A stretch of DNA of 64,000 bases from Chamaesiphon minutus PCC 6605 (GTDB taxonomy: Bacteria > Cyanobacteriota > Cyanobacteriia > Cyanobacteriales > Chamaesiphonaceae), in NCBI RefSeq assembly GCF_000317145.1, contig NC_019697.1, positions 5,096,886 to 5,160,885 on the forward strand. Direction: 5' to 3'. Positions 1 through 6,074 of the stretch are shown here, in pieces. A program made the position numbers and the translations under genes. Position 1 is the stretch's first letter. Every line of letters starts with the position of its first letter. The notes under the pieces were generated by a model that made no database searches, was not told where the DNA came from, and saw only the letters and a list, made by a program, of their open reading frames with translations.

Positions 1-1297
1 TCGATGTCATCTGCCAAACTCGATCGATCGCCCAACTCGGACAACCTCGCTGAATTTTAGTGACTTTGCGATCGATCTCTTGCCCTTGAGCATTTTTCAA
101 TACTTCTGTCCGAACGATCCGCTCGCCATCTTGAAGATATGTCGCTAATACTTGCATGGCTTTGAGTTTGAGCGATACTTGTCGCTCGGAAATCGACAGC
201 GGCGGCGCAGTTGGAGTCGGATTGACAACTAGTTCTTTGGTCTTAGTTGGCACTTGGACGGGAGCGACTGCGCTGGTAAGTGTGGGTGGTGTCGTTTCGA
301 TGGGTACGGCTACGCTGGTAAGTGCAGGTGGTGTCGTTTCGATGGGTGCGGGTTCGCTCTCGACTGGGGACGGTACCGTTAGATTTTCTAAGACATTAGT
401 GCCACTGAGTAGTTCGCTAATATTATAGATGCCTTCGATCCGATCGACATCTTCGGTATCCTCAGTATTAAAAGTATTTAGATATGACTCTAAATCGATC
501 TCGATCGAGGAATCTTCGATCGCCTCTGCCGACTCTTGGCTGACAGGTGTTGCTACTGGAGTCGATTGGCGCGGCTGCGGACGAGACGATAATTCAGAGG
601 ATGAAGATTCAGACATGGGGAATGTAGCAGAATCGGATACATTATTATCCCTTGACTCTGGTGGGTCGTCCTGTGTCGGTGTGGGCAGATCGAGCCAGAC
701 GACATATTCTTCAGGCTCGATCGTAATTTCGCCCCTAGCGATTCTAATCGTAAAGTTACCCTGTTTGGGTTGCAGATCTTCGACCAAATACCATTTACCT
801 TTACTAAAGGTTAAAATATTAACTGGTGGATTGGGATTGTTAAGTTGGTAACGTTTGTTATTCCACCAAATCCGCCACAACTGAATCACTTCCGTGTAAT
901 TTAAGTGATAGCCATCGGGAATTTTGAAGTGATGGTATTCTGTGAATTCTGGATGCGATGACTTTTGCCTAGTAATAAATCCTAAAGCTGTTAAATTCCG
1001 CACGATTCTCGCTCTAAAAAGCGAATTATTACCGATCAGGACTTTGCGCTGCCACTGATTTACTTGCTTGCTAATCCCGATTAGCTTGGAATTACCATCG
1101 CTCAATCTAATCGATGTTTCGGTAAATTCTAACTTTAAATTTTCGCTAGCGGCAGAGTGCTTTTCCCCTCTAGCAAAGTAGCCAATGATGTCGAGTTCTT
1201 CAGCGGTCGGAGCGGGATCGAGATCGTTAGTGGAGTCGGCTGTACCAGATGACAAACTATTACCAGTGCCACGGGATACAAAATTTGAGTCTGTCAT
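1..1297 (-). CDS. Unrecognised multidomain protein, partial at left window edge
   Basis: Reading the minus strand from an ATG at 1297, the frame stays open for 432 codons to the window edge, so the C-terminus lies outside. The product starts MTDSNFVSRG. A probable folded domain spans about residues 30-200, rich in Trp and Tyr with a LWRIWWNN stretch. A long acidic, Pro/Ser/Thr-rich linker follows at about 205-385, containing two tandem copies of a PIETTPP unit. A basic helical segment starts near residue 390 (SERQVSLKLKAMQVL). Plus-strand frames over the same bases are low-complexity shadows. I do not recognise the family. The linker suggests a cytoplasmic modular protein; no signal peptide or membrane segment is visible. 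Confidence 0.75.
   Translation of the reverse strand, partial: MTDSNFVSRGTGNSLSSGTADSTNDLDPAPTAEELDIIGYFARGEKHSAASENLKLEFTETSIRLSDGNSKLIGISKQVNQWQRKVLIGNNSLFRARIVRNLTALGFITRQKSSHPEFTEYHHFKIPDGYHLNYTEVIQLWRIWWNNKRYQLNNPNPPVNILTFSKGKWYLVEDLQPKQGNFTIRIARGEITIEPEEYVVWLDLPTPTQDDPPESRDNNVSDSATFPMSESSSSELSSRPQPRQSTPVATPVSQESAEAIEDSSIEIDLESYLNTFNTEDTEDVDRIEGIYNISELLSGTNVLENLTVPSPVESEPAPIETTPPALTSVAVPIETTPPTLTSAVAPVQVPTKTKELVVNPTPTAPPLSISERQVSLKLKAMQVLATYLQDGERIVRTEVLKNAQGQEIDRKVTKIQRGCPSWAIDRVWQMTS
269..350. repeat. Imperfect tandem repeat inside the edge gene
   Basis: Two adjacent copies of about 39 bp (TGGTAAGTG...GGTGGTGTCGTTTCGATGGGT) encode, on the minus strand, the repeated PIETTPP-(A/T)LTS unit of the edge gene's linker. 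Repeats of this sort change length by slippage. Confidence 0.6.
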
Positions 1298-1859
1298 GGG
1301 GTTAGATCGGGTACGATTTAGATATACGAAATTTTTAAATATAAGTTGGACTACTATACGACTGTTACTATGTTGAGAAAATATATAGTAGTTGTATCTT
1401 TGTCCCCTAATTTTAGCCAGTCAATTTTAAGATCGGTCAGTGGGTTCGCTAATTTTGAGCATTTTGACTTACGCAAGATGTGCAGCCAATTGCTGATGCT
1501 GGTAATCTTCATAATTGGATGTCGTTGCTACCGAACGGATCGAGATCTCTTAAATGTAGCGATCTCGATCGAAGCGATCGCCTAAATTCAGACGATCTTG
1601 CAAGTAATTTTACTGTTAATCCGAGCGATATCTACCATTACAACAGTCGATCGCCTCAAACATACATTCGCGCAGCCACCAGTGAATCTAAATCTACACT
1701 ACGATCGCTCTATATTCCCGACAGCGGTAGTAGTGATAAAGCTCGTTTGTCGATCGCAATTGCATCGCCAAGGAGCGCGGAGCATTGAGTCTATACTTTT
1801 TCAGAGACCGGAGTTCGATCCTGTTATACTAGGAAGGCTGTGCCTAAATATTTACTCAT
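1298..1859. other. Intergenic region between the edge gene and rpmF
   Basis: About 560 bases with divergent genes on either side. Apart from CGATCG-rich words, one HIP1 site near 1576 and the putative rpmF -10 box, I see no supportable gene. Short plus-strand frames here lack ribosome-binding sites and resemble no family. Confidence 0.5.
1825..1830 (+). promoter_or_regulatory. Putative -10 box of rpmF
   Basis: TATACT lies 30 bases before the rpmF ATG. No good -35 hexamer is visible at the usual spacing, which is common in cyanobacterial type 2 promoters. Inferred from sequence only. Confidence 0.4.
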
Positions 1860-2036
1860 ATGGCAGTTCCAAAGAAGAAAACATCCAAATCCAAACGTGA
1901 CAAACGCCGCGCTACTTGGCGTAACAAAGCCGCTATTCAAGCTAGAAAAGCACTCTCATTAGGTAAATCCGTTCTGACTGGACGCTCTACTAGCTTTGTT
2001 TATCCTCAGCCTGATGATGAAGAATCCGCTGAATAA
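1860..2036 (+). CDS. rpmF: 50S ribosomal protein L32
   Basis: The 58-residue product begins [17 protein letters not shown], the characteristic L32 N-terminus, and continues with the basic RATWRNKAA segment. It has the acidic tail seen in cyanobacterial and plastid L32 (DDEESAE). L32 is a structural protein of the large ribosomal subunit. The Cys zinc site of some L32 forms is absent, as usual for cyanobacteria. The gene stands alone, without the yceD/plsX partners found in proteobacteria. The start is the first ATG of the conserved motif. Confidence 0.95.
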
Positions 2037-2238
2037 TAACGGCATACTCACAGCGATCGAGGACTACTAGTTGAAGTACTTACCCGACCGATCGAACATC
2101 CAGGAGACTCCCGCTTACTGTGCAGCAGAAGCGGTGAGCGGAATGGACGTAAATCTGTCGCGATCGACCAGTGTAATTTTCTCGCCTGTGAATCTCAAGT
2201 TATACTGTGCGTTTGTTCCAGCAGTCGCCCGTAGATCT

Positions 2239-2311
2239 GGGGCGTGACAAGTTAGTTTGCATGGCTCTGTTTGTCGATCGAATTATCGACTCGTGTTGTC
2301 GCCCCTTTTTT
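2239..2311 (+). terminator. Rho-independent terminator, possibly the 3' end of a small RNA
   Basis: GGGGCGTGACAA (2239-2250) pairs with TTGTCGCCCC (2296-2305) except for a 2-base bulge. The loop contains a second hairpin, GTCGAT-CGAATT-ATCGAC, and T6 follows. It lies over 200 bases past the rpmF stop. A TATACT box at about 2200 could start a roughly 100-nt transcript ending here. It may instead simply terminate rpmF. Confidence 0.55.
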
Positions 2312-2389
2312 CTTAATTAATGCTTGCTATCTCTACACGGCAATTCGTTCGAGACTTTTACACCCAGAATTATTAGCACCGATCGGATT

Positions 2390-2429
2390 TCCTCACAAGT
2401 TTCTCAACCTTTCGATCTATCTTGAAGAT
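2390..2429 (+). promoter_or_regulatory. Shared promoter-like element, copy 1
   Basis: A 19-base block, TCCTCACAAGTTTCTCAAC, is followed by 21 bases sharing 13 positions with copy 2 at 3501-3540, ending in TGAAGAT in both. Copy 1 starts 66 bases before the HPF gene start and copy 2 starts 65 bases before the DUF4342 gene start. The ungapped alignment and equal distance point to a common promoter or regulator site. Confidence 0.65.
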
Positions 2430-2455
2430 CGAGCAGCTTAAGAGGTTCAGAAATT

Positions 2456-2845
2456 ATGAGATCGAATACCCAAATTTTCTGGCAGAACCTGTCACCATCG
2501 GACGCGATTGAAGTCAAGATTCGCAAACAGATTGCCAAGCTCGAAAAACTCTCCGAGCATCTTAGCGATTGTCGAGTCATTATTGAAGTCCCACATCGCC
2601 ACCATCATCAAGGCAACATTTACCACGTTCAAATTAATTTGACTGTCCCTGGTAGCCAATTAATCGTCAATCGTCAGCCATCAGCGCAGCAGTCACATGA
2701 AGATCTCGACATTGCCATTCGAGATGCCTTTGAGAGTGCCGAACGCCAACTTAAAGAGTATACACAGCAACAACGCGGCGAAATTAAAACACATGCGGGA
2801 GGCGATCCGGATGACAATCATCACCCGATTCCGCGATCGCACTGA
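2456..2845 (+). CDS. Short ribosome hibernation-promoting factor / RaiA-like protein
   Basis: The 129-residue protein has the HPF/RaiA pattern: residues 15-110 carry a strand-helix layout with VKIRKQIAKLEKLSEHLSDC, a strand ending IIEVPHRHHH, then YHVQINLTVPG and a final helix (DLDIAIRDAFESAERQLKEY). HPF binds the 30S decoding region and silences ribosomes in stress. The usual cyanobacterial LrtA is a long form with a C-terminal dimerisation domain. This one stops after the first domain with a His/Asp-rich tail, so it is probably a short paralogue. Its end overlaps the next gene by 35 bases, so the two are probably co-transcribed from the element at 2390. Confidence 0.8.
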   Translation: MRSNTQIFWQNLSPSDAIEVKIRKQIAKLEKLSEHLSDCRVIIEVPHRHHHQGNIYHVQINLTVPGSQLIVNRQPSAQQSHEDLDIAIRDAFESAERQLKEYTQQQRGEIKTHAGGDPDDNHHPIPRSH

Positions 2846-3482
2846 AGCCGGACAACTACTTGCCAGCCAACTTACCGCATATGCCAATCATCCCGATGTC
2901 CTGGTGCTCGGTATCCCGCGCGGCGGCGTACCTGTCGCCTTTGAAGTGGCAGAAGCACTCAATGCACCCTTAGACATCTGTTTGGTGCGGAAACTTGGCG
3001 TTCCCGGACATCCAGAACTCGCCATCGGCGCGATCTCTGCTAGTGGGTTTGAGGTATTGAATGAAAATCTGCTTGATTGGCTGCGAATTTCTGGACATAC
3101 AATCGCCGAAGTTGCCAGTCTGGAGCTTCAGAAACTACATCGACACGATCTCATCTATCGGGGAGATCGTACCCCACTAAAGATCCACGATCGAATTGTC
3201 ATTTTAGTAGATGAGGGTTTGGCGACGGGTGCGATGATGCGGGCGGCTATCGGCGAAATCGCACCCCATCAACCACAGCGCATAATTATCGCCGCTCCAG
3301 TTGCGCCGCCGGACACTTGCCAGGAGTTGAGATTGGAAGTCGATGAAGTAGTGTGCTTAGTCACTCCCGAACAGTTTGAGGGGATTGGTTTATGGTATAA
3401 GGATTTCGAGCGAACCACCGATGATGAAGTGTGTGAATTGCTGAATGTAGCAACCTACAGGTTTTACAGCTCGATCGGGTAA
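2811..3482 (+). CDS. Predicted phosphoribosyltransferase (COG1926 type)
   Basis: The 223-residue product has the PRPP-binding signature VDEGLATGAM at residues 133-142 and an upstream LGIPRGGVPVAFEVAEAL segment, typical of stand-alone phosphoribosyltransferases of unknown substrate. The ATG at 2811 is chosen because GGGAGG precedes it by 8 bases; longer in-frame starts would lie deep inside the HPF gene. Members of this family often sit beside stress genes such as universal stress proteins and HPF, which matches this context. Substrate and physiological role are unknown. Confidence 0.8.
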   Translation: MTIITRFRDRTEAGQLLASQLTAYANHPDVLVLGIPRGGVPVAFEVAEALNAPLDICLVRKLGVPGHPELAIGAISASGFEVLNENLLDWLRISGHTIAEVASLELQKLHRHDLIYRGDRTPLKIHDRIVILVDEGLATGAMMRAAIGEIAPHQPQRIIIAAPVAPPDTCQELRLEVDEVVCLVTPEQFEGIGLWYKDFERTTDDEVCELLNVATYRFYSSIG

Positions 3483-3500
3483 AAATCGTCTACAATTTTA

Positions 3501-3540
3501 TCCTCACAAGTTTCTCAACATTGTCGTCTAGGCTGAAGAT
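3501..3540 (+). promoter_or_regulatory. Shared promoter-like element, copy 2
   Basis: The same 19-base block as at 2390 (TCCTCACAAGTTTCTCAAC), followed by ATTGTCGTCTAGGCTGAAGAT. It starts 65 bases before the ATG at 3566. Confidence 0.65.
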
Positions 3541-3565
3541 ATCACTAGCGATAGAGAATAAAATT

Positions 3566-3904
3566 ATGAATGCACCTATCGATTCCGAACGAAACGTCGA
3601 ACGAGTTGATGCTGAATTAGCACCTACCACACCCGCAGCGAAGACAGAAGAAAAAATTGGGGTAGAAGAATTTACGATTACAGGGGATGCTCTTGTTGCC
3701 AAAATTAAGGAACTGATTCACCAAGGCAATATTCGGCGAATTATCCTCAAAAATGAAGAAGGCCGCATCTTAATTGAAATTCCCTTAACAGTAGGTGTTG
3801 TCGGTAGTGTCCTGAGCGCGGCTCTGTTTCCCGTCATGGCTGCTGTTGGGGCAATTGGGGCGATGGTCGCTCATCTCACGATCGCGATCGAGAAACGCGA
3901 ATAA
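3566..3904 (+). CDS. DUF4342 domain protein
   Basis: The 112-residue protein has a polar N-terminus, then EEFTITGDALVAKIKELIHQGNIRRI, a strand (ILIEIPLTVG) and a hydrophobic segment, SVLSAALFPVMAAVGAIGAMV, ending in a short charged tail. This is the DUF4342 layout: a DNA/RNA-sized helical part followed by an amphipathic or membrane segment. Function is unknown. The start at 3566 is favoured over an upstream in-frame codon because it sits at the same distance from the shared promoter element as the HPF start does. That element suggests co-regulation with the HPF-phosphoribosyltransferase pair. Confidence 0.75.
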   Translation: MNAPIDSERNVERVDAELAPTTPAAKTEEKIGVEEFTITGDALVAKIKELIHQGNIRRIILKNEEGRILIEIPLTVGVVGSVLSAALFPVMAAVGAIGAMVAHLTIAIEKRE

Positions 3905-4296
3905 AGTAGAAGATCGAATTCATCTATCTCCCAATTCCACAATTTTGGGCATTGCCGATCTGAGGAGGTACGATCTGCTGTTTTTTCAACCAACAGATCG
4001 TCCTCTCCCCACTCTCCCCTGTTTTCAAATTCGATCGCCAAGTAGCGAGCTTAAGTAAATTTTTTGGCGTTGCTGAATCTAGGTATGAAAAACTAGAGCA
4101 GAGAGCGGGGAGCGAGTCGCTGACCCTTTCCATATGCTCCTCCACTCTCCGCATGATTTGGGTCGCTGTCTTGACTCGCTTCCACGATCGGGAGACAAAG
4201 GCGTGCGCGTACCCGCTAAACCGTAGGCTTTGCCGACGTTTCGCCAGAGGCGAGGCTACGCCAACGCGTAGCGTCTGCGATAGCGGCTCGCAGCCG

Positions 4297-4339
4297 GGAG
4301 GTTCCCTCTCTTGACGCACACAACTCGGAGGGAACCTCC
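4297..4339. repeat. Inverted repeat, dispersed cyanobacterial element
   Basis: GGAGGTTCCCTC (4297-4308) is perfectly complementary to GAGGGAACCTCC (4328-4339), with a 19-base loop containing CTTGACGC. No T-tract follows, so it looks more like a dispersed palindromic repeat than a terminator. Confidence 0.6.
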
Positions 4340-4460
4340 TTTGTCGATGCGCCGCTCCCGGATTGTGTGAGACAAGACAGCAGAAACGCGAGCCGCCGCT
4401 CCTCGCTTTCAAAAAATTTGATATGCGATTCAAATGTTCGACAGCTTACTTTAACGATCG

Positions 4461-4500
4461 ACTAAAAATGATGTAGAGATATTACTTGCTCTACATCATT
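4461..4500 (-). terminator. Terminator of the DUF4870 gene
   Basis: A perfect 12-bp stem, AATGATGTAGAG (4467-4478) with CTCTACATCATT (4489-4500) and a 10-base loop. On the minus strand a T-run follows the stem, just beyond the stop codon at 4518. Confidence 0.8.
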
Positions 4501-4517
4501 AACGAAGAATAGCTGAT

Positions 4518-4895
4518 TTAGAGTACTCTCCAAATAAAGGGATAGCGATAAGGCTCATTAGGATTGCTTAAAGTTGCTAAAATTCCAGAGATCGGCGGTA
4601 TCCAATGGAAGAGAAAAAATGCTAAACCAATTATCCAAGCGAGGGGAATAGTCACGATTAAAGCGGTAAATAAGAATCCCAGCGCACCTGAAATAGCGAA
4701 GTACAGCCAAATATTAAAATGGTAGTTTAGTGTTTCTTTAGCGGTTGCCTTGATAACTGGATCGTCAAAGAGTAGCAAAACCACCAATGGAATTGCAGAA
4801 GTAAAGAGCAGCGAACCTAAAAAAATCGAACCGTGGCACAACAACGAAAATAGTTTGCGTTTACCACTATTAGTGCGATCGCCAGTATCAACCAT
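4518..4895 (-). CDS. DUF4870 membrane protein
   Basis: The 125-residue protein has a short charged N-terminus, then four hydrophobic segments: about 18-45, a middle pair at 62-100, and a C-terminal one. The KATAKETLNYHFNIWLYFAISG core matches the DUF4870 (Tic20-like) pattern of K...E.LNF......Y. It is an inner-membrane protein of unknown role. It is monocistronic, ending in a strong terminator. Confidence 0.8.
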   Translation of the reverse strand: MVDTGDRTNSGKRKLFSLLCHGSIFLGSLLFTSAIPLVVLLLFDDPVIKATAKETLNYHFNIWLYFAISGALGFLFTALIVTIPLAWIIGLAFFLFHWIPPISGILATLSNPNEPYRYPFIWRVL

Positions 4896-5285
4896 TTCAA
4901 ATCCTCTTTAATTTTACTAGAGTTTAATTATATTGACTCTAACATAGCTAACTCAAGTCTGACAGTGCGTTTTTCCTGGGTGGAAATCCGCAATCATTAC
5001 AGCCGAAACATTCTCGCCTGATTAACTTTCATTACATTAATCGAAGACGATCCGAGCGCAAGCAACTGGGTATAATGCTCTACAACCAGATGGGAAAAAC
5101 GAAACAGCCCAATCGGTACGAGAAAAACCCCCGTACTTATCATGCTGCGGCGATCTCGAGTACCGCTGCTCAGCCGCCGTCCACTCGCGATTCGGGACAC
5201 CCGATCGTCGAGAAGTTTCCTGAATAGATGTGTTTTCACTCAATCCTGATGTTCCCTCTCTTCTCTTCCTCACACATTCTCCTCC
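4896..5285. other. Divergent intergenic region
   Basis: About 390 bases between the DUF4870 gene and the MlaE-like permease gene. It must hold both promoters, but I see no convincing boxes, and the minus-strand frames in it lack any family resemblance. Confidence 0.4.
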
Positions 5286-6074
5286 ATGTCTCCACGATCT
5301 GGTGCAAATTCCCGTCCCTACGGATATATCCGCTTTGCCTTCACATTGCTAATGATCGGTCAAGTTTGGCTGCATTTGATTCAAGGTAAAACTTGTCTGA
5401 AAAAAGTTCCCGAACATTTATTTAAAACTGGTCCTGCCTCAATGCTGCCAGTCCTATTAGCCAATCTGATGGCGGGGATGATTTTTACGATTCAAACAGC
5501 TAGACAATTAGATTCCATGGGTGCGATTAATTCGGTTGGGGGCGTGTTTGCGCTCGCCTTCGGTCGCGAACTAGCACCAATTCTCACCGCTTGCGTCGTC
5601 GCGGGGCAAGTTGGCTCGGCATTTGCCGCAGAAATTGGGGCGATGAAAATCAGCGAACAAATCGACGCTCTCTATACTCTCAGAACCGATCCGATCGATT
5701 ATCTGATCTTGCCACGGGTACTCGCTTGTTGTGCGATGGTGCCAATTTTAATTATCTTAGGTTTGGTATTTGGGATTGGCGGCGGGATCTTTGCTGCCGC
5801 GCAACTATATCAGGTACCACCATTGGTATTTTTAGATTCGGTGCGGAGTTTTTTGCTCACCCAGGATCTGCTGATGTTGGGATTTAAGGGCGTATTATTT
5901 GGCATCGCCATTGGGGCGATCGGCTGTGGATGGGGAATGACCACTTATGGCGGCGTCAAGCAAGTCGGCGAGTCAGCTACCGCTGCTGTTATTGTCTCTG
6001 GGATGGCAATTTTCGCAATCGATCTAGCTATTTCTCTCCTCTTGGGCGATCTGCCCATCAAAAAGCCGATGTAA
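5286..6074 (+). CDS. MlaE-family lipid ABC transporter permease
   Basis: The 262-residue protein has the MlaE (YrbE) signature: an N-terminal amphipathic helix, then LPVLLANLMAGMIFTIQTARQL, the conserved FGRELAPILTACVVAGQVGSAFAAEIGAMKISEQIDAL block (about 90-130), and further membrane helices ending in GDLPIKKPM. These permeases move phospholipids between the membranes, or serve the TGD-like import system in plastids. The ATPase and MCE substrate-binding partners are not adjacent, which is usual in cyanobacteria. The ATG at 5286 follows CTCCTCC-rich sequence with no clear ribosome-binding site. Confidence 0.92.
   Translation: MSPRSGANSRPYGYIRFAFTLLMIGQVWLHLIQGKTCLKKVPEHLFKTGPASMLPVLLANLMAGMIFTIQTARQLDSMGAINSVGGVFALAFGRELAPILTACVVAGQVGSAFAAEIGAMKISEQIDALYTLRTDPIDYLILPRVLACCAMVPILIILGLVFGIGGGIFAAAQLYQVPPLVFLDSVRSFLLTQDLLMLGFKGVLFGIAIGAIGCGWGMTTYGGVKQVGESATAAVIVSGMAIFAIDLAISLLLGDLPIKKPM

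Follow-up and report, generated by a model that had tools for sequence, protein, structure and literature searches.

What controls two neighboring transcription units that begin behind the same sequence, and how far does that control reach? In the window, by which we mean the whole 64,000-nt stretch of Chamaesiphon minutus PCC 6605 DNA that was analyzed, the 19-base sequence TCCTCACAAGTTTCTCAAC occurs exactly at 2390–2408 and 3501–3519, both on the plus strand, and the ATG codons at 2456 and 3566 stand 66 and 65 bases beyond its first base, just as the first-pass annotation had described. These are the only copies in the window when up to three mismatches are allowed, and 100 shuffles gave none. 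In the 21 bases 3′ of the twin 19-mers, 13 positions are alike and the terminal seven (TGAAGAT) are identical; this half-conserved block is mainly the putative -10 region. Within the first 19-mer lies a 15-base box, CTCACAAGTTTCTCA (2392–2406, +), with two CTCA half-sites 11 bp apart. A putative -10 element, TATCTT (2418–2423, +), lies 11 bases 3′ of it, followed by a gene for ribosome hibernation promoting factor (HPF, S30AE; 2456–2845, +; Pfam Ribosomal_S30AE, PF02482, E = 1.4e-14) and one for a phosphoribosyltransferase (2811–3482, +; PF00156, E = 2.2e-13) whose start overlaps the HPF end. The second box (3503–3517, +), 1111 bases after the first, is likewise followed at 11 bases by a putative -10 element, TAGGCT (3529–3534, +), and precedes a DUF4342 gene (3566–3904, +; PF14242, E = 1.9e-28); both -10 elements were assigned from their sequence and from the TANNNT position preference described below. 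Scans of 2200–4500 for sigma-70-type and terminator consensus sequences gave one match each, against 2.7 and 2.8 in shuffles. A known RNA element at the locus is unsupported, as Rfam at gathering thresholds returned no match on 1200–5400. Separately, the interval 4200–4400, between the DUF4342 and DUF4870 genes, is rich in short repeated and inverted words and resembles a dispersed repeat.

The element extends well beyond this locus. In the genome as searched (6.76 Mb, three contigs), the 19-mer has 17 copies at up to three mismatches vs. none for the reversed control. Its refined genome-wide form, CTCACRAGTTYCTCA-N11-TANNNT, joins an 11-bp direct repeat to an adjoining -10 box; allowing two mismatches or fewer over its 18 positions, we counted 47 copies vs. 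one for the reversed control. The 15-base box alone, CTCACAAGTTYCTCA, has 14 exact copies and 21 with a single mismatch. When up to two mismatches are tolerated, its 60 matches stand against 41 for the reversed pattern, and most two-mismatch boxes that lack a -10 are therefore chance occurrences. Among 41 sites picked on the box alone, with the -10 ignored, TANNNT stands at +11 in 33, while elsewhere between offsets 4 and 23 no position has more than four, and the fifth base of the -10 is C in 19. The CTCA-N7-CTCA halves are nearly invariant in these 41 sites, which were selected on that pattern, and 84 sites in relatives fit it as well. The earlier suggestion that a single regulator serves both units is supported. 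Random placement of the element, which had been named as a reason to abandon that suggestion, was not what the genome search returned: all 45 sites examined lie between predicted genes (our own ORF calls) in DNA that is 74% genic, and a predicted start lies within 400 bases at 40 of them, at a median distance of 59 bases from the -10. The 45 were taken from the 47 copies, and at least one of the two omitted (C1:5052111) is outside the stretches analyzed. A one-mismatch box at C1:3445710, which lacks a -10 and is not among the 45, lies inside a gene.

Conservation at the locus follows the element. A congener with 89% identity keeps both boxes, 1112 bases apart and the second with one mismatch, and one with 78% identity keeps the HPF box with one mismatch. 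Alignment with the former is good from about 25 bases 5′ of the HPF box to the start codon and with the latter from the box itself to the start codon; further upstream it is poor in both. The phosphoribosyltransferase is present in four of 11 genomes of the family, and five of six transferase loci beyond the window have an upstream element at up to two mismatches; upstream of the transferase locus of G477 none was found at up to three. Two further transferase copies were seen in the same genome, one behind a box (C1:5052180–5052803, L346) and one, likewise boxed, that comes after another boxed HPF and has a shorter open frame of 168 aa (C1:5969275–5969628, L347). Of 386 genomes of the phylum, 31 carry a stricter pattern; 30 of these belong to the same order, and the control had no match in any of the 31. 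In a prokaryote-wide scan that yielded at least 117 stretches, 79 of 80 loci among the matches listed are cyanobacterial. The lone other locus among those 80 is an exact element in a Fimbriimonadaceae MAG (L265:5982–6013, minus), which may reflect chance, transfer or a binning error.

By Pfam, the stress and resting-state targets in C. minutus comprise two HPFs, two universal stress proteins, two Hsp20s and DnaJ, to which an FtsH carrying a pyridoxamine-oxidase-like domain can be added. This agrees with the stress or dormancy regulon that had been proposed from HPF, and the shared stress and resting-state character of the targets speaks against a set of unrelated genes. Metabolic targets are a PEP-synthase/PPDK-like enzyme, a D-2-hydroxyacid dehydrogenase and a glycogen-phosphorylase-family protein; others are two cation ATPases, a cyclopropane-synthase-like methyltransferase, and DUF4342, DUF6335 and DUF6920 proteins, and several have no Pfam match. 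An atypical, boxed D1 is split over two frames about 50 bases apart (L053:6656–7171 and L053:7223–7726, minus; C1 at about 5984.7–5985.7 kb), and this rogue-type psbA looks from its sequence like a broken gene. On a large plasmid-like contig (C3, 100–135 kb; L056, L057), a variant box, CTCATAASTTYCTCA, which we treated separately from the main element, precedes genes for phosphoketolase, a DUF305 protein and another P-type ATPase. Nearby lies a REC-DBD-REC-REC-GGDEF regulator with the recognition helix RTHIKGIR (L057:15066–17180), and the plasmid sites may be a sister regulon of this paralogous regulator.

In relatives of the same order, the boxed genes encode universal stress proteins, Hsp20, pyruvate:ferredoxin oxidoreductase (PFOR), HoxEF, rogue D1 and the phosphoribosyltransferase. 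Seventy-three boxed proteins include PFOR (8), universal stress proteins (8), radical-SAM proteins (4), Hsp20 (3) and HoxE-like proteins (3); they were hand-picked from 84 sites, with short or doubtful first ORFs omitted, one spurious ORF swapped for a gene further downstream (L091:7535–8665) and L094:5238–7679 added from a weaker site. In G030 a boxed HoxE is followed by HoxF, and in G072 a short boxed gene is followed by one for an ADP-forming acetyl-CoA-synthetase-like protein. When 127 exact sites in at least 117 loci, a few of them near-duplicates, were compared with a reference set by tblastn, 53 were matched and 74 had no match; the former include an unknown 127-aa protein (8), PFOR (7), the ADP-forming synthetase (7), universal stress proteins (7), Hsp20 (5), radical-SAM proteins (5), HoxE (2) and D1 (2), plus others. 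Of 30 PFOR loci, a box lies upstream in six of the seven from genomes with at least six sites and in none of the 23 in other genomes, a slightly circular comparison in that PFOR's own box counted toward its genome's number of sites. The PFOR box of G436 is 1.4 kb upstream, with an intervening gene assumed, and PFOR has no box in G454, a genome with 23 sites. Pyruvate formate-lyase (PFL) was rejected as a core target, none of 30 loci having a box in the 1450 bases covered (927 bases at one clipped locus). In the genus of C. minutus itself, neither PFOR nor PFL was found at the thresholds used, so that the case for anoxia there draws on its relatives plus a handful of enzymes.

The boxed psbA of G376 is uninterrupted (356 aa, at about L102:7619–8689). 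By eye, mapping its manganese-ligand positions against a published list (PMC4773611) places D at E189, A at E333 and V at D342, with an extended end. With these ligands missing, it would belong to the rogue (sentinel, Group 2) D1 proteins, and a reading of the boxed psbA as a microaerobic D1′ was dropped. According to the available portion of that review, Group 2 D1 is expressed at night or in darkness (PMC4773611). Taken as a whole, the target set suggests dark anoxia, with fermentation, a silent photosystem II and resting ribosomes.

Which protein might read the box? The likely candidate is a receiver–OmpR-type DNA-binding domain–Hpt–receiver (REC-DBD-Hpt-REC) protein with the recognition helix RTHIKGLR. 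It has both REC and Trans_reg_C domains and was assigned to the box by association; among its homologues, some add PAS, GAF and kinase domains and some GGDEF. Such a protein sits among boxes in the clusters of three relatives. At seven loci of family f6 (L091, L093, L165, L166, L167, L171, L172) the box lies between the regulator and a divergent gene, which encodes a universal stress protein or a similar one in all five checked. In the genus of C. minutus, the gene divergent from the regulator encodes Hsp20 in C. minutus and in G424, and G458 shares the layout. Across 20 regulator regions (371 kb, within about 10 kb), 15 sites were found in 11 regions, three of which regions (G424, G458, G435) had been chosen with a site on the contig already known; without these three, 12 sites remain in 17 regions. 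Twenty paralogue control regions (378 kb) contained none, and the reversed pattern had no match in either set. The nine regulator regions without a site include all six of family f3, and no site lies within about 10 kb of C1:903786, the nearest C. minutus homologue by DNA-binding domain, or of three relatives (L204–L207).

The abundance of the element also follows the recognition helix. Among 22 linked-class proteins, the helix reads RTHIKGLR in 15, RTQIKGLR in six (f3) and RTHLKGLR in one, and exact RTHIKGLR occurs in none of the 20 control paralogues. Of the 148 genomes of the order, 27 encode RTHIKGLR, and at least six sites were present in 20 of these 27 vs. five of the 121 without it (Fisher p = 1.3e-14, an optimistic value since RTHIKGLR was picked after the linked examples had been seen); under within-family permutation the association has p = 0.002. 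Among transcription-factor families, this co-occurrence was scored for OmpR-type DNA-binding domains. None of 45 RAH/RSH genomes reached six sites. The five element-rich genomes without exact RTHIKGLR are four f3 genomes, whose linked homologue has RTQIKGLR, and G446, and seven RTHIKGLR genomes hold just one to three sites. The element, its position and its gene set were obtained directly, as were the linkage and co-occurrence with this regulator class. C. minutus encodes RTHIKGLR at three places (C1:903898, C1:1407624, C1:6244487), and we infer that its regulator is one of these three paralogues. At the second (L047:238–3711, minus; C1:1406–1410 kb), opposite the boxed Hsp20 gene, transposase-like frames cut off the N-terminal receiver from the DNA-binding/Hpt/receiver part; G424 and G458 have uninterrupted homologues of this regulator, and the other two C. 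minutus genes are open frames.

The reading we prefer, to which we assign a probability of about 0.62, is an OmpR/PhoB-type activator regulon in which the RTHIKGLR hybrid regulator turns on fermentation and resting-state genes in the dark at low oxygen. Each element would be an activator-dependent promoter, at which the response regulator would bind a tandem pair of CTCA half-sites, spaced by one turn of the helix, just upstream of TANNNT and recruit RNA polymerase at the usual -35 position (class II activation). A one-turn repeat that ends 11 bases before the -10 suits class II activation by a PhoB/OmpR-type protein. Binding by this protein, activation rather than repression, the signal and the resulting expression are what we infer from these features. 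The regulator would be the REC-DBD-Hpt-REC hybrid, fused in some lineages to PAS, GAF and histidine kinase domains or to GGDEF, and SigE polymerase might be its partner, since the -10 resembles the form reported for SigE. The regulon would unite fermentation enzymes, namely PFOR, the bidirectional hydrogenase and the ADP-forming acetyl-CoA-synthetase-like enzyme in relatives and the 2-hydroxyacid dehydrogenase, PEP-synthase-like enzyme and glycogen-phosphorylase-family protein in C. minutus, with proteins of the resting state, namely HPF, universal stress proteins, Hsp20 and FtsH, and also with a rogue D1; darkness combined with little oxygen would turn the whole set on.

The same regulator could instead govern a general stress or light/dark regulon with no specificity for low oxygen. 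Many targets are indeed generic stress proteins (Usp, Hsp20, DnaJ, FtsH, HPF) and this genus lacks PFOR and PFL at our thresholds, but PFOR, HoxEF, the radical-SAM activases and a D1 without manganese ligands are difficult to account for unless oxygen is low, and we regard this as unlikely, with a real share of the weight. It is also conceivable that a regulator of another family binds the box and that the REC-DBD-Hpt-REC proteins are co-inherited neighbors. The scoring covered OmpR-type domains, the genomes are related (within-family p = 0.002) and f3 regulators are not beside boxes; against these points stand synteny in several families, a direct-repeat geometry typical of OmpR-type sites and contrasts inside families f6, f11, f48 and f58, which together make such a regulator quite unlikely.

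The first-pass annotation had also allowed for an alternative sigma factor, and a group 2 factor such as SigE, or an ECF factor, could in principle read the element as its promoter with no separate activator. The constant 11-base spacing to the -10 is compatible with this, as are the reported role of SigE in promoting hox and nifJ and the likeness of the -10 to the SigE form, TANNNT rich in C according to the available part of one report (PMC11368403). Yet the 15-base direct repeat exceeds a -35 hexamer in length, such a hexamer placed 17 bases from the -10 would land on CAAGTT between the half-sites, and the number of elements follows an OmpR-type recognition helix. With an 11-bp direct repeat before an ordinary TANNNT, and with the repeat and the co-occurrence left unexplained, a sigma factor alone has become a weak option that we consider improbable. 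That the element is a mobile or repeat sequence rather than a regulatory site is suggested by the clustering of sites in few regions and is scarcely credible, given that conservation is bounded by the box start and the -10 region, that all 45 sites examined are intergenic and that the element precedes orthologous genes in other genera.

A bolder reading, which we hold tentatively and at slightly less than even odds, is that the regulon forms a master circuit, not described before, for life in darkness without oxygen across one large cyanobacterial order. A single-protein phosphorelay acting through one 11-bp-repeat box would shift cells in concert from oxygenic photosynthesis to fermentation, with photosystem II oxygen-silent and the ribosomes in hibernation. 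In some lineages that phosphorelay would unite sensor kinase, Hpt, receivers and OmpR-type domain in one protein, and in others a diguanylate cyclase. For cyanobacteria other than the Synechocystis model, we know of no account of the switch to fermentation and dormancy when oxygen is absent. A precise, searchable box and a candidate regulator permit direct tests and the prediction of targets by sequence, and provide a context for DUF4342, DUF6335, DUF6920, the HPF-linked phosphoribosyltransferase and rogue D1; the element itself is a possible dark- or anoxia-inducible promoter.

A literature search, with most subscription papers outside its reach, returned no report of the box or of such a regulon, and the known systems resemble it in part. 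CopM is a DUF305 protein, and the plasmid variant box precedes a DUF305 gene, a likeness to CopRS (Hik31-Rre34) of Synechocystis. In contrast, CopRS is copper-responsive according to the accessible part of its description (PMC4182526). Synechocystis hox and nifJ are described, in the available portions of two reports, as controlled by SigE, cyAbrB2, LexA and Rre34 (PMC11368403, PMC13421787); the same enzymes (PFOR, Hox) act there at low oxygen behind a similar -10, whereas those portions mention no such box, and the regulator hypothesized here is a different one, in other genera. With PhoB/OmpR-type systems the candidate regulator shares its OmpR-type DNA-binding domain. Pho boxes and similar sites likewise have direct half-sites about 11 bp apart that end about 11 bases before the -10, with no -35 box; however, the half-site here is CTCA, and the candidate adds Hpt and a second receiver, sometimes with a kinase or GGDEF, in one protein. 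The mycobacterial DosR dormancy regulon has a similar mix of universal stress proteins, Hsp20, HPF-like proteins and phosphoribosyltransferase, and its low-oxygen logic would be shared. Its regulator DosR is of the NarL/LuxR type and reads a palindromic box, unlike the direct repeat and linked Trans_reg_C (OmpR-type) domain found here. In kind, the system would be a two-component regulon whose content resembles that of DosR, set apart by its regulator architecture and phototrophic gene set.
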